From Nitrospirales bacterium (GTDB lineage: Bacteria > Nitrospirota > Nitrospiria > Nitrospirales > UBA8639), in assembly GCA_029261355.1 (NCBI GenBank), contig JAJDBM010000024.1, positions 186,001 through 250,000 on the forward strand: a stretch of 64,000 bases of DNA, given 5' to 3'. A program made the position numbers and the translations under genes. The notes under the pieces are model-generated. The model searched no databases, was not told where the DNA came from, and saw nothing but the letters and a program-made list of their open reading frames with translations. Below are positions 3,646-42,519 of this stretch, piece by piece (position 1 is the first letter of the stretch; each line of letters starts with the position of its first letter).

Positions 3646-4467
3646 TTAGGTTATTTCCCGTGCAGCCTGACGGACCATCCATGGTCTGACCACCTGTTCA
3701 CCCTTGGCATACGCTGCAAGCAATGATCGGTCACATAATTGATTGATCCGTCTGGGGACGCCACCACTGATCATATGAATAAGGACAAGTATCGCTCGAT
3801 TCAAATGAACACGATCATCTTTTGTGGCTACTTGGAGACGATGCCGGACATAGTTCATTGTATCTTTCAGTGAAAAGGGCTGCAGGCGATAACGGACACT
3901 GATCCGTTGATCCAAAGGACGAAGCGCTCGAGTCGCGAGTTTCTGTTCAAGCTCCGGTTGTCCCACGAGCAACAAACACATGAGTTTTTCTTTTTCAGTA
4001 TCCAAATTTGAGAGCAATCGCAGTCCCTCCAAGACCTTCCCACTTAATCGATGCGCTTCGTCGACGAGGACGGCAACTTGCTCCCCACCTTCAGCCAATC
4101 GAAGCAGTAATTTGGGCAATTCACGTTGAAGAGATCCCAAGGAGGCATCCTTGGGAACCTGACCTGCCAAATCTTCATATATTGAAGCCAGCAGGCCTCC
4201 GTATGATTGATCTGGATTCAATAAATAGGCGAAGCGAGTGTTCTCAGGAGGATGTCGAAGTAAGTGTCGACAGAGCAGGGTCTTGCCTAAGCCCACCTCA
4301 CCAGTCAACATCGTCAGATTCCCACTAGCAATACCAAACTGAAGATGCGACAACGCCTCCAGGTGTCGGCTACCAGGGAAGAAAAAATCTGTGTCTGGGG
4401 TAATACGAAATGGAGGCTCAATAAAGCCCAGTTCTTCATAACACATTGCTAAATTACCTGCGATCAT
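3646..4467 (-). CDS. mshM: MshM/ExeA-like AAA ATPase
   Basis: This 273-residue AAA-type ATPase belongs to the GspA/ExeA/MshM family. It opens with the family signature (YEELGFIEPPFRITPD followed by FFFPGSRHLEAL). Walker A is GEVGLGKT (about residue 57) and Walker B is VAVLVDEAH (about 132). A sensor segment follows (LLSNL, LLVGQPEL) and then the C-terminal helical lid with GGVPRRINQLCDRSLLAAY. Family members supply ATP-dependent help for secretin or pilus assembly, often in contact with peptidoglycan. The ATG at 4467 overlaps the mshL stop in an ATGA junction and is preceded by a GGGGGA ribosome site, which favours this start over the internal Met 8. Confidence 0.92.
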   Translation of the reverse strand: MIAGNLAMCYEELGFIEPPFRITPDTDFFFPGSRHLEALSHLQFGIASGNLTMLTGEVGLGKTLLCRHLLRHPPENTRFAYLLNPDQSYGGLLASIYEDLAGQVPKDASLGSLQRELPKLLLRLAEGGEQVAVLVDEAHRLSGKVLEGLRLLSNLDTEKEKLMCLLLVGQPELEQKLATRALRPLDQRISVRYRLQPFSLKDTMNYVRHRLQVATKDDRVHLNRAILVLIHMISGGVPRRINQLCDRSLLAAYAKGEQVVRPWMVRQAAREIT

Positions 4468-38340: not shown

Positions 38341-38847
38341 CTAGGCTGCAATGAGAGCTAAAATCGCATCGACTACCTGCTCAGGTGAAGAATGATCGGT
38401 AGGAATAACATGATCGGCAGCCACCTGATATTTTGGGGTACGTTCTTTTAAAATTTCCTCAATTTCTTCAATAAATGTTTTTGTCCCTGACAAAGAAGGC
38501 CGCTGCGTATCGCCTCCGATTCTCGAAACAATCGTCGCAATCTCTGCCGTCAGCCAAAAAGTAACAGCATTCGTTTTCAAGGCGATTACGTTGGGTTCTT
38601 TCAAAATCGCCCCTCCACCCGTATCGATCACAAGACCATCTTGATGGCTCAATGCCTGACATATTTCAGTTTCTATTCCTCGAAAGTGATCCCAGCCATA
38701 CTTTTCAACAATTTCAGGAATCGGCAACTGCGCCTTCGCAATAACCTCAGCATCAGTTGAGACCACATTCCTACCTAATCTCTGTCCTAACAGTTTCGCC
38801 ACCGTACTTTTCCCTGTTCCACGATACCCAATGAGCACAATATTCAT
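38341..38847 (-). CDS. aroK: Shikimate kinase
   Basis: This 168-residue P-loop kinase has GYRGTGKSTVAKLL (Walker A), DAEV with the shikimate-binding Asp, GWDHFRGIETEI, and IDTGGGAI with the substrate-binding glycines. A lid Arg region is TQRPSLSG. It phosphorylates shikimate in aromatic amino acid synthesis. It overlaps aroE by four bases, so the two form an operon. Confidence 0.96.
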   Translation of the reverse strand: MNIVLIGYRGTGKSTVAKLLGQRLGRNVVSTDAEVIAKAQLPIPEIVEKYGWDHFRGIETEICQALSHQDGLVIDTGGGAILKEPNVIALKTNAVTFWLTAEIATIVSRIGGDTQRPSLSGTKTFIEEIEEILKERTPKYQVAADHVIPTDHSSPEQVVDAILALIAA

Positions 38848-39707
38848 CGAAAGTGCTCCTCAAGAACCCCCCGCATGACATCTATAGGAGCTGCCTGCCC
38901 CGTCCATCGCTCAAATTGTCCCACAGCTTGATTCACAAACATCTCTATCCCGCAAATCGTCCGACAGCCTGCCTCGCGAGCTTCGCGTAGGAGCTGGGTT
39001 TCGAGAGGATTATAGACAATGTCCATGACTGTTAAATCAGACTTGAAAAGCTTTTTATCCACGCAACTTGCGTCAATGTTTGGATGCATCCCAATTGGCG
39101 TGCAATGGATAAAAACCTGAGCCCCTGTAATCCCAGCCGCCAATGTCTCTTGAGACACAGAGGCCTCATCAACAGAAACGCTGGTACGTTCACGGAGGTC
39201 GTTGACTAATGAGGTCCGCTCATCTTCATCAATTCCCAGTATGGTTATATTCTCAATCTTCCCTTCTACGGCCAATCCAAATGCAATGGCTCGAGCAGCA
39301 CCTCCTGATCCAAGGAGCAACACTCTCTGTCCGTCGAGTTGAGGACATCCCTGGCGAAGAGCTTGTAGCGCTCCGGACGCATCCGTGTTATAGCCGGTCA
39401 GTTTATCCCCGTCTTTGACGATCGTGTTAACTGACCCAATATGTCGGGCTGTTGCCTCAATCTCATCCAAATAGGGCATGACCGCCACCTTATGCGGAAT
39501 GGTCACGCTAAACCCTCGTAGATTACCTAATGCTCGAATCCCGCGAATGGCCCCTTCAACATCAGCTTGAATCGGAAAGGCCAAGTAAACAAAATTGAGT
39601 CCAAGGTGATCAAAGGCCGCATTGTGAATGGCGGGTGATAATGAATGGTGAACGGGATAACCAAGCACCCCGCATAATTGTGTCTCAGCAGTTATATTCA
39701 TCGCCAT
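38844..39707 (-). CDS. aroE: Shikimate dehydrogenase
   Basis: This 287-residue protein has the AroE motifs: GVLGYPVHHSLSPAIHNAAF, VTIPHKVAVMPYLDE, NTIVKDGDKLTGYNTDASG, the NADP-binding LLLGSGGAARAIAFGL and the C-terminal GIEMFVNQAVGQFERWTG. It reduces 3-dehydroshikimate to shikimate. It is the upstream gene of the aroE-aroK pair. Confidence 0.97.
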   Translation of the reverse strand: MAMNITAETQLCGVLGYPVHHSLSPAIHNAAFDHLGLNFVYLAFPIQADVEGAIRGIRALGNLRGFSVTIPHKVAVMPYLDEIEATARHIGSVNTIVKDGDKLTGYNTDASGALQALRQGCPQLDGQRVLLLGSGGAARAIAFGLAVEGKIENITILGIDEDERTSLVNDLRERTSVSVDEASVSQETLAAGITGAQVFIHCTPIGMHPNIDASCVDKKLFKSDLTVMDIVYNPLETQLLREAREAGCRTICGIEMFVNQAVGQFERWTGQAAPIDVMRGVLEEHFR

Positions 39708-39862
39708 AACTTTATCAAATCGTACACAGATTAAATATGGGACCCCATGAGCAATGCAAAGTTATCACATACTTCTAAGGAGAAACTCAACTCATGTCGT
39801 CACGCGGTGAGAGGAAATGGATTACAGGGAGAACAGGAGGCAGGTCAGTTTAGAAAAAAGCA

Positions 39863-39900
39863 AAAAAAACCGGGGAGGGTATGAATACCCTTCCCCGGTT
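39863..39900 (-). terminator. Strong rho-independent terminator of the basic peptide gene
   Basis: On the minus strand AACCGGGGAAGGGTA and TACCCTCCCCGGTT form a stem (one bulge) around a four-base loop, followed by a long T run. It lies about 25 bases after the stop of the 29-residue peptide gene. Confidence 0.92.
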
Positions 39901-39925
39901 AACGTATAAAGAAGTGACTCTCGAA

Positions 39926-40015
39926 TTATCGAGAAGTCTTTTTGCGCGATGGCGCAGCTTTCTTGGCGCGTACGGCCGCTTTCTTGACCGGTTTTTTCTT
40001 GACGACTTTAGCCAT
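39926..40015 (-). CDS. 29-residue Lys/Ala-rich histone-H1-like basic peptide
   Basis: From ATG at 40015 the frame encodes 29 residues: ten Lys, three Arg, six Ala, four Val, two Pro and no acidic or aromatic residue (starts MAKVVKKKPVKKAAV). A strong AGGGGGGTGAG ribosome site lies just upstream and a strong terminator just downstream, which argues for real, high-level expression. The pattern resembles the C-terminal tail of histone H1-like or AlgP-type bacterial proteins, so DNA or RNA binding is likely. Its leader carries a small CCGAT-GGTT-ATCGG hairpin at 40045-40058. It is too short for most gene finders. Confidence 0.82.
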   Translation of the reverse strand: MAKVVKKKPVKKAAVRAKKAAPSRKKTSR

Positions 40016-40197
40016 GATCTCACCCCCCTTCTGTTAAGTACTTACCGATGGTTATCGGCAACCTTTTCAGAATCTTAAAGACTTTTTTCTAGGGAGAGAG
40101 GGTTAAAGAATGGGAGGGACAACACGCAATCTTGAGTTGGTCAGAGGCGAAAACGGGGATCAAAATCAACCATCGGCCACAAAACGTGTAAGAACAC

Positions 40198-42519
40198 CTA
40201 TCCAATCTGATGACGAGGAAATATGACAGTAAACGTCGCTCCCTTCCCGATTTCACTCTGAACGGTAATCTGTCCACCATGTAAATCAACAAGTGTTTTG
40301 ACAATCGCCAGACCAAGACCAAGCCCCTCGGTTTGTCCAGTATGCTCAGCATGCACCTGATAAAAGGAGTGAAACAATTGAGGCAAGGCTTCCGAGGGTA
40401 TCCCACAACCAGAATCTGAAATAACAAGACGTACATGATCGGAATCTGAGCTCACGTCCACTCGGATCGTTCCCTTTTCCGGTGTAAACTTGATGGCATT
40501 ATGAAGGAGATTGGTCACAATCTGATTGATTCGATCACCGTCACCCAATACTGACACCTCAGGATTAGCACACCACACAGTCACCTGCTGAAACTTTTCA
40601 GAAACCACCAATTGGAATTGTTCGACAACCTCATGAACAAGAGGATGTAACTTCACTGGCACGCGTCTCAACCGAAGAGTTCGAGATTCAATCCGTGACA
40701 GATCTAACAAGTCAGCAATCATTCTGGTTAATCGGAGTGTATTGGCCTTCAACCGTTCTAAATATACCCTCTGTTGGGTTGAAAGACCGTCCCCAACAAC
40801 CCCTTGGAGCAAATTCTCAATAAACCCTTTCATAGACGTCAACGGCGTCCGTAATTCATGAGAACAATGAGAGAGAAAGGCTGACTTGAGACTATCAACT
40901 TCCTGCAACCGAGCATTGGCTTGCTCGAGGGCAAGGTTCATTGATTCCAAATCAATCGTTCGTGCCTTGACCTTCGTCTCTAACCCAATATTCAGTAGTT
41001 CAATCTCTGCATAGGCGCTAGCATTATCTAATGCGATGGCAAGCTGACTCGCCACCGTTGCTAACAAATTCTCCTCCTGCGTCGAAAACGGTTTGTGTTC
41101 TAATCGATCAACGACAAGTGCCCCAATGATTCGTTGTTGGACCTTGACTGGAACGGCCAGAACTGACTGAGTATGCAGTTGAATCATGAGTTGTTGATGA
41201 ATCGGATGAAACCCAGAAAACATCTCTTCTGCATTTTCGATCAATAAGGAATTCCCTTTTTTAAAAACTGTGGCTTCATGGCTCCCATCTGCCACCGGGA
41301 CTTCAAATGCCTTGACAGCTTCGGCCAATTCCTGCGAAACCCCAACCAGTCGACCATGGTGCGCGAGAGAACGTTGAGGATCATACTCCAAGTACAGAGC
41401 CCGCTCATATGGCAAGTCGATGATAATGGCATCCAAGGCTGCCTGAATAATACGCTCTCGTTCTCGAGTCGAACTGAGCGTGAGACCGATATCATGAATC
41501 ATCGTCAATTCTGTGATTCGTTTCTGTAACTCCTCCACGGTCTGCTCTTTGGTCTGATAGTCTTTCTTTAACTCGCCGTGCCGAAATTCGATATCCTCAA
41601 GTTGTTCACGAATCACCCTCCGATGTGAGTTGAGTTCTTGACGATCCGTCCAAAACTTTCCAGCGAGACCAAATGCTAAAGCAGGGATAACCGCCATCCC
41701 AATCTTCAACCAGAGTGGGATCGTGGGAATCCAAACCTGAGCAATGGCCAACACCGCAATACCAAAAATAACGCCAATCGCCATCCACAACCACAGTCGG
41801 CTTTCCTGTGGCTGCCAGGTGAATATCCATTCACAATAATTAGCCCCGTCCCCCATACAGCACGATTCCCGGATATCCGCGGGTTGAATACCAACCATTC
41901 GAAAAGGCACTTCAGCGATTGCCACCTTAGTTGTCTGACAAATTCGATCGGCACAACCTCGGAGATAAGGACCAAATTGAGAGATCGTTCGTTCTGAAAA
42001 CCGAAGACGCATGACGGCCTTCCCATTCGTCACGCTCACGAGTTCTGGCAATAACGCGCCTTTGGTGAACTTCCCAACCAAAGGCAGATAGAGTCGGTAA
42101 ATTTGCATGATTGAAAAGGGTTGCCCAAGCAACTGAATCACAGGCGTCAGAAAACGTTCACGACCAAGATGTAAGGCAAACAGCGGATCTTCTGAAAGGA
42201 GCGAACAATATTCGTGAAGAAACATGACGAATTCATAGGAGTAACTATTCCTCGGACTCTTTAAAAACTGAGCAGAAACATGGAATGTCGTGTCTGGAAT
42301 GCTGGCGTTCAATAGGTCTACCAATTCATCAACTACCACCGTTCCCGCCTCATGGCCGCGGCTCCGCGTCACGAGATCCTGCAGGTAGTCAAGGTTCGCT
42401 CGCACGATCACGCCACTCACATCTTGAATCCGTTCGCCATTGAGTTCATGGCCAAATGGACGAAACTCCATCACGCCTTTTTCAATAATGGAGTGGGTTT
42501 TAGAAAGGAGCTTTGGCAT
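40198..42519 (-). CDS. Membrane-associated sensor histidine kinase with GAF domain
   Basis: This 773-residue protein has an N-terminal sensor region (about 1-240) ending in a Cys-containing CCMGDGANYCEW segment, reminiscent of V4R-like or heme/NO-type sensory folds but not firmly assigned. Two close membrane helices (about 242-290) follow, then a coiled coil (about 295-345) and a GAF domain (about 350-505). HisKA (His in SHCSHELRTPLTSMKGF, about 565) and HATPase_c (N-box NLLHNAIKFTP, G-boxes DSGCGIP and GLGLGLAIVK) complete it. No response regulator is adjacent, so the partner is unknown. Confidence 0.9.
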   Translation of the reverse strand: MPKLLSKTHSIIEKGVMEFRPFGHELNGERIQDVSGVIVRANLDYLQDLVTRSRGHEAGTVVVDELVDLLNASIPDTTFHVSAQFLKSPRNSYSYEFVMFLHEYCSLLSEDPLFALHLGRERFLTPVIQLLGQPFSIMQIYRLYLPLVGKFTKGALLPELVSVTNGKAVMRLRFSERTISQFGPYLRGCADRICQTTKVAIAEVPFRMVGIQPADIRESCCMGDGANYCEWIFTWQPQESRLWLWMAIGVIFGIAVLAIAQVWIPTIPLWLKIGMAVIPALAFGLAGKFWTDRQELNSHRRVIREQLEDIEFRHGELKKDYQTKEQTVEELQKRITELTMIHDIGLTLSSTRERERIIQAALDAIIIDLPYERALYLEYDPQRSLAHHGRLVGVSQELAEAVKAFEVPVADGSHEATVFKKGNSLLIENAEEMFSGFHPIHQQLMIQLHTQSVLAVPVKVQQRIIGALVVDRLEHKPFSTQEENLLATVASQLAIALDNASAYAEIELLNIGLETKVKARTIDLESMNLALEQANARLQEVDSLKSAFLSHCSHELRTPLTSMKGFIENLLQGVVGDGLSTQQRVYLERLKANTLRLTRMIADLLDLSRIESRTLRLRRVPVKLHPLVHEVVEQFQLVVSEKFQQVTVWCANPEVSVLGDGDRINQIVTNLLHNAIKFTPEKGTIRVDVSSDSDHVRLVISDSGCGIPSEALPQLFHSFYQVHAEHTGQTEGLGLGLAIVKTLVDLHGGQITVQSEIGKGATFTVIFPRHQIG

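Follow-up and report, generated by a model that had tools for sequence, protein, structure and literature searches.

The 64-kb window of a Nitrospirales genome analyzed here (64,000 nucleotides in total) carries, between a gene for a GAF histidine kinase and the shikimate dehydrogenase gene aroE, a very small open reading frame that raises the question of whether it is a gene at all and, if so, when its product would be made and what it might act on. This ORF (positions 39926 to 40015, minus strand) starts with ATG and encodes the peptide MAKVVKKKPVKKAAVRAKKAAPSRKKTSR, in which 10 lysines and 3 arginines add up to 13 basic among 29 residues while aspartate and glutamate are missing entirely, just as the original prediction had stated. 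It is Lys/Ala-rich, contains no aromatic residue, and reaches a net charge of around +13 in the version found in the window, where no other ATG-initiated ORF of 20 to 40 residues combines at least 40% K/R with the absence of acidic residues.

A profile search across 197 genomes of the order detected homologues of 27 to 30 residues in 28 of the 49 genomes of a single GTDB family, distributed over six genera (g1, g3, g5, g7, g8, and g9) and including the Nitrospirales MAGs NPIRA01-04, NPIRA06, OFTM313, OFTM334, Dino_bin26, SZUA-312, and J017. When 98 related genomes were searched at the DNA level, the region was likewise recovered: it is present in the genus to which the window belongs, and weaker matches come from further genera of the family. 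The reading frame is kept in all 28 homologues, which share a fixed arrangement of K/R, A, P, and S/T over 28 to 30 residues, and the 26 distinct sequences among them have a mean pS of 0.62 and a mean pN of 0.16 (mean pN/pS about 0.26). Because pN is lower than pS in 324 of 325 sequence pairs and positions including M1, K7, K11, K12, R16, K18, K19, K25, and R29 are invariant, the ORF is, judged by its substitutions, a genuine gene whose protein product is under purifying selection along its whole length including the C-terminus. What had been proposed as a real and probably well-expressed gene for a small basic protein is thus supported as a real gene by conservation, synteny, and coding-type substitution, while the abundance of the peptide is something that we infer. 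Loss of the frame in relatives, which the original prediction had named as grounds for refuting it, was checked for and is not what the homologues show.

The same positions bear on what kind of protein this is. Its composition of lysine, alanine, and proline without acidic residues matches the KPAA-type tails of AlgP (PMC9239181) and could suggest a small histone-H1-like nucleoid or granule peptide, i.e., a single module of the lysine-rich tails of AlgP, PhaF, or Hc-type proteins that coats DNA or polyphosphate. We consider this possible yet rather doubtful, given that a single module has no helical domain for granule attachment, that the invariant lysines and arginines suggest a defined site over bulk charge, and that no sequence family matches: searches of Pfam, NCBIfam, and PHROGs returned at best a chance match (E = 5.2) in 1 of 15 members. 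The position-specific conservation of K and R argues for a defined target, which, going by the composition of the peptide, is probably a nucleic acid or another polyanion, and the peptide itself is probably a disordered polycation. The earlier suggestion of a nucleoid, ribosome, or RNA-binding peptide or a partner of some polyanion seems plausible.

Beyond this one family, nothing rose above noise or reached a useful E-value, neither in the Nitrospiraceae-type family f3 and the order's remaining families (197 genomes of the order searched) nor elsewhere in the phylum (396 genomes sampled); weak matches outside the family turned out to be Lys-rich stretches of other frames. Within the family, the peptide was not found in genera g4, g2, g10, and g6, and it is absent even from complete genomes of its own family and order. 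The g4, g2, and g10 genomes that we read carry aroE, mostly with the promoter motif described below, and have nothing peptide-like upstream of it. Similarly, no diverged copy precedes aroE among the loci listed from 20 genomes without a match, and the 700 bp upstream of aroE at 80 named loci hold no peptide outside the family. In an aroE tree whose deep branches are weakly supported, and in which one scored absence (L081) is merely a contig edge, the large peptide-less clade g4 appears as the sister of peptide-bearing g3/g7, and the history of the peptide fits one gain with later losses. As far as these searches reach, it is a new orphan family of microproteins known only from one family of Nitrospirales.

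The neighborhood of the gene is stable on one side only. Its downstream neighbor is aroE (38844 to 39707, minus strand) in every locus that extends far enough, and the GAF histidine kinase gene (40198 to 42519, minus strand) lies upstream, between a fadL-type gene and the peptide gene. In four congeners from genus g1, the kinase is absent from the locus and the peptide is kept beside the fadL-type porin gene, so the kinase is not an obligate partner and the idea of a peptide that serves the adjacent histidine kinase is ruled out.

The signals for translation and for the end of the transcript are strong in the window. The region in front of the start codon reads AAGGGGGGTGAGATC-ATG and includes the Shine-Dalgarno sequence AAGGGGGGTGA (40020 to 40030, minus strand), which is separated from the ATG by GATC (4 nt) and, as read from the sequence, pairs with the canonical 16S anti-Shine-Dalgarno at 11 positions if two G-U pairs are allowed. 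Together with the perfect Shine-Dalgarno AAGGAGGTGATC at the peptide locus of several relatives, this upholds the original prediction of a near-ideal ribosome site. The terminator, which had been called perfect-looking, deserves that description in the window, where AACCGGGGAAGGGTATTCATACCCTCCCCGGTTTTTTTT (about 39862 to 39901, minus strand) folds into a single strong GC-rich hairpin followed by U8 in the manner of an intrinsic terminator, though not across the family: the hairpin is kept in all relatives, but a clear U-tract is restricted to the genus of the window and genus g7. In genus g9 and some other genera, where the hairpin lacks a U-tract, termination may differ or the hairpin may form the 3' end of the RNA. 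A further small hairpin spanning the stop codon (TTCTCGATAATTCGAGAG; 39918 to 39935, minus strand) is kept in genera g1 and g5. At g9 loci (e.g., L037, L039, and L040), the segment CCCCGGAC behind the stop codon could pair with the 5' arm GTCCGGGG of the conserved hairpin, which would create two mutually exclusive structures.

The order of the elements, with the ORF first, then a terminator-like hairpin, and then a biosynthetic gene, is also that of an attenuator, in which a lysine-rich leader peptide would sense charged tRNA-Lys and control aroE through the hairpin as terminator, and the alternative pairing in g9 would suit such a mechanism. However, aroE serves the synthesis of aromatic amino acids, whereas the ORF, rich in lysine and alanine, has no aromatic residue, and the whole protein including its C-terminus is under purifying selection. 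Moreover, a conserved element, TTGAGTTT...TATGTGATAAC (39761 to 39790, minus strand), lies between the terminator and aroE and is probably aroE's own promoter, as suggested by the strong conservation of TTGAGT...TATGTGATAAC upstream of aroE in g1, g9, g4, g2, and g10 genomes and by the presence of the element in most of the genomes read that have no peptide. On the strength of the residue content and this separate, probable promoter motif, we rejected a leader of aroE and give that reading hardly any credence. Instead, a promoter directly 5' of the ORF, the hairpin directly 3' of it, and the separate promoter-like element before aroE together imply that the peptide would be made from a short, monocistronic mRNA.

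The promoter in question is of the FliA/WhiG (sigma-28) type. It comprises the -10 element GCCGATAA (40052 to 40059, minus strand) and, at a spacing of N11, the -35 element TTAAGATT (40071 to 40078, minus strand), which matches TAAAGTTT at 6 of 8 positions, so that TTAAGATT-N11-GCCGATAA agrees at 14 of 16 positions with the published sigma-28 consensus TAAAGTTT-n11-GCCGATAA (PMC2859248). WhiG has the same flagellar promoter specificity, with TAAA at -35 and GCCGATAA at -10 (PMC8325347). Upstream regions of the peptide gene align poorly between genera apart from this element: every one of the 28 homologues has CCGATA 43 to 56 bp ahead of its start codon, and in 27 of them CCGATA is preceded, 15 or 16 bp further 5', by T-N-A-N-G, i.e., T-(T/C/A)-A-(A/G/T)-G, with a weaker -35 match in genus g9 (TCAKG). 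The full T-N-A-N-G N15/16 CCGATA motif occurs in only 0.03% of shuffled upstream regions, and a scan for sigma-70 promoters found nothing at this site. We therefore regard the gene and the promoter class, both as predicted from sequence, as well supported, and we infer transcription by a FliA/WhiG-type sigma factor. The original prediction had missed this promoter, which by its type ties the peptide to the motility/c-di-GMP programme and not to housekeeping chromatin.

The promoter bears on two further readings. Sigma-28-dependent small RNAs are known, e.g., MotR and FliX of E. coli (PMC10578931), and a sigma-28-type promoter, a short transcript, and a conserved 3' hairpin would also fit an RNA that acts as a regulator itself, with the ORF as a secondary or incidental feature. 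We consider this very unlikely in light of coding-type substitution throughout the ORF, a conserved ribosome site, and a conserved protein C-terminus, whereas the sequence of the untranslated regions is mostly not conserved between genera. A lineage-specific accessory ribosomal protein like bS22, bL37, or THX, i.e., a basic element wedged into a pocket of the rRNA without any regulatory role, would be compatible with the size and charge of the peptide, which match bS22-type proteins (PMC10618245), and with the high expression for which its strong ribosome site and terminator seem made. Yet one would not usually expect a ribosomal protein behind a sigma-28-type promoter, the gene is missing from the complete genomes mentioned above, and neither phmmer nor profile searches of the PDB found any chain matching at a useful E-value, so this reading appears unlikely to us.

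The peptide gene is not alone in carrying the promoter motif. It precedes flagellin in five genomes of the window's genus and a FlgM-like gene in three genomes, and it is also found before CheY-like and STAS-like ORFs (all these gene names were assigned by reading sequences); in the window genome, TCAAGTCC-N11-TCCGATAA lies 124 bp ahead of the flagellin start (MALVVNTN...). A strict pattern search of the same genome returned 11 motif sites, 10 of them intergenic and including those at flagellin, flgF-like, cpaB-like, and STAS-like genes, the peptide gene, and four c-di-GMP-I riboswitches, whereas all four sites of a control pattern were inside ORFs (this hand-made control carried GDADT for GDAHT, one degenerate letter different). 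The separate reversed control is unaffected by that slip; with 8 sites for it against 11 for the motif, the count in one genome is no evidence by itself, but the intergenic placement is. Across the 49 genomes of the family, the motif and its reversed control gave 369 versus 245 sites where a FliA/WhiG sigma scores above the curated cut-off and 28 versus 42 where none does (Fisher p = 0.002), i.e., a modest genome-wide excess. Four of the 11 strict sites (L196, L198, L199, and L204, on contigs C5, C24, C24, and C52 of the window genome) run into the c-di-GMP-I riboswitches, identified as Rfam RF01051 and RF03167, within about 30 to 90 nt, suggesting a combined layer of control by sigma factor and c-di-GMP.

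The distribution of the matching sigma factors follows that of the peptide. All 28 carriers encode a FliA/WhiG-family sigma that scores above the TIGR02479 cut-off, and none of the 15 family genomes without such a sigma has the peptide; six genomes have the sigma and no peptide, four of which are 64% to 84% complete. Flagellin shows nearly the same split. Since this co-occurrence is clumped on the tree, with one large clade having neither, its nominal p overstates the case, and we treat it as consistent with, though no independent proof of, a regulatory link. Members of g4 including G007, G014, and G020, with genomes of 2 to 3 Mb, jointly lack flagellin, an over-cut-off FliA/WhiG sigma, and the peptide.

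Most carriers encode two FliA/WhiG-type sigmas, one in a cluster resembling flhA-flhF-flhG-fliA and a second beside recN and lptF/G-like genes (minus strand; positions 4129 to 5007 of L210, on contig C61 of the window genome, and 4849 to 5691 of L211). In genome G010, which is 99% complete, neither a flagellin match nor a flagellar FliA with a high score turned up; of the two sigmas it has the second alone, and it still keeps the peptide with the promoter TTAAGTAG...GCCGATAA. The peptide is thus not strictly a flagellar accessory, which weakens the case for a purely flagellar role, and its regulator may be the second sigma or both.

Taken together, we find it fairly probable that the locus encodes a microprotein from a monocistronic gene of the motility/surface regulon that binds nucleic acid electrostatically. 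A promoter of the FliA/WhiG family would drive a short mRNA of its own, alongside genes for flagella and pili and genes under c-di-GMP control; the strong ribosome site would drive translation, and the transcript would end at the hairpin terminator before aroE. The polycation would then bind nucleic acid, either rRNA on the ribosome or DNA, and might thereby tune translation or the state of the nucleoid in a motile or surface-responsive phase. More tentatively, these peptides could form a new family of polycationic microproteins under sigma-28/WhiG control that couple the motility/c-di-GMP programme of Nitrospirales to ribosomes, nucleoid, or polyphosphate. Very small basic proteins are often missed and their functions are hard to guess, so that the regulatory context offers a testable handle here, and the conserved FliA/WhiG-type promoter is the first clue to the timing and possible role of this one. 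The control of motility and attachment in Nitrospirales has been little studied, and the promoter is shared with genes of the flagellum and the pilus and with c-di-GMP riboswitches; should ribosomes or the nucleoid prove to be the target of the peptide, a protein of 29 residues would tie translation or the state of the chromosome directly to a motility-type sigma factor.

Among known systems, bTHX is a short, very basic accessory ribosomal peptide that is often unannotated and restricted to certain lineages. The same features are common to our peptide and the accessory ribosomal peptides bS22 and bL37, and bS22 of Borrelia is indeed a non-annotated, very basic short ribosomal protein with 61% K/R (PMC10618245). 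Our peptide differs from all three in its lack of similarity to PDB chains, its sigma-28-type promoter, and its patchy distribution within one family. With AlgP/PhaF and Hc2 of Chlamydia it has in common the character of a Lys/Ala/Pro-rich, acid-poor polycation predicted to be disordered (PMC9239181, PMC2848022), and peptides of the KPAA-type tails of AlgP bind DNA while AlgP itself localizes to polyphosphate granules (PMC9239181). However, the repeat region of AlgP spans 154 residues and Hc2 has 165 to 237, compared with one module of 28 to 30 residues here; AlgP and PhaF have a separate helical domain that the peptide lacks, and it is set apart from histone-H1-like proteins by position-specific conservation and the absence of a sequence match. 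No polycationic microprotein of a FliA/WhiG regulon was found in the literature searched. Control of pili and a tie to c-di-GMP are both on record for WhiG-type regulons (PMC8325347, PMC2859248), and it is with FliA/WhiG regulons that the peptide gene shares its type of promoter, a match to TAAAGTTT-n11-GCCGATAA, in common with flagellin, FlgM-like, and CheY-like genes.
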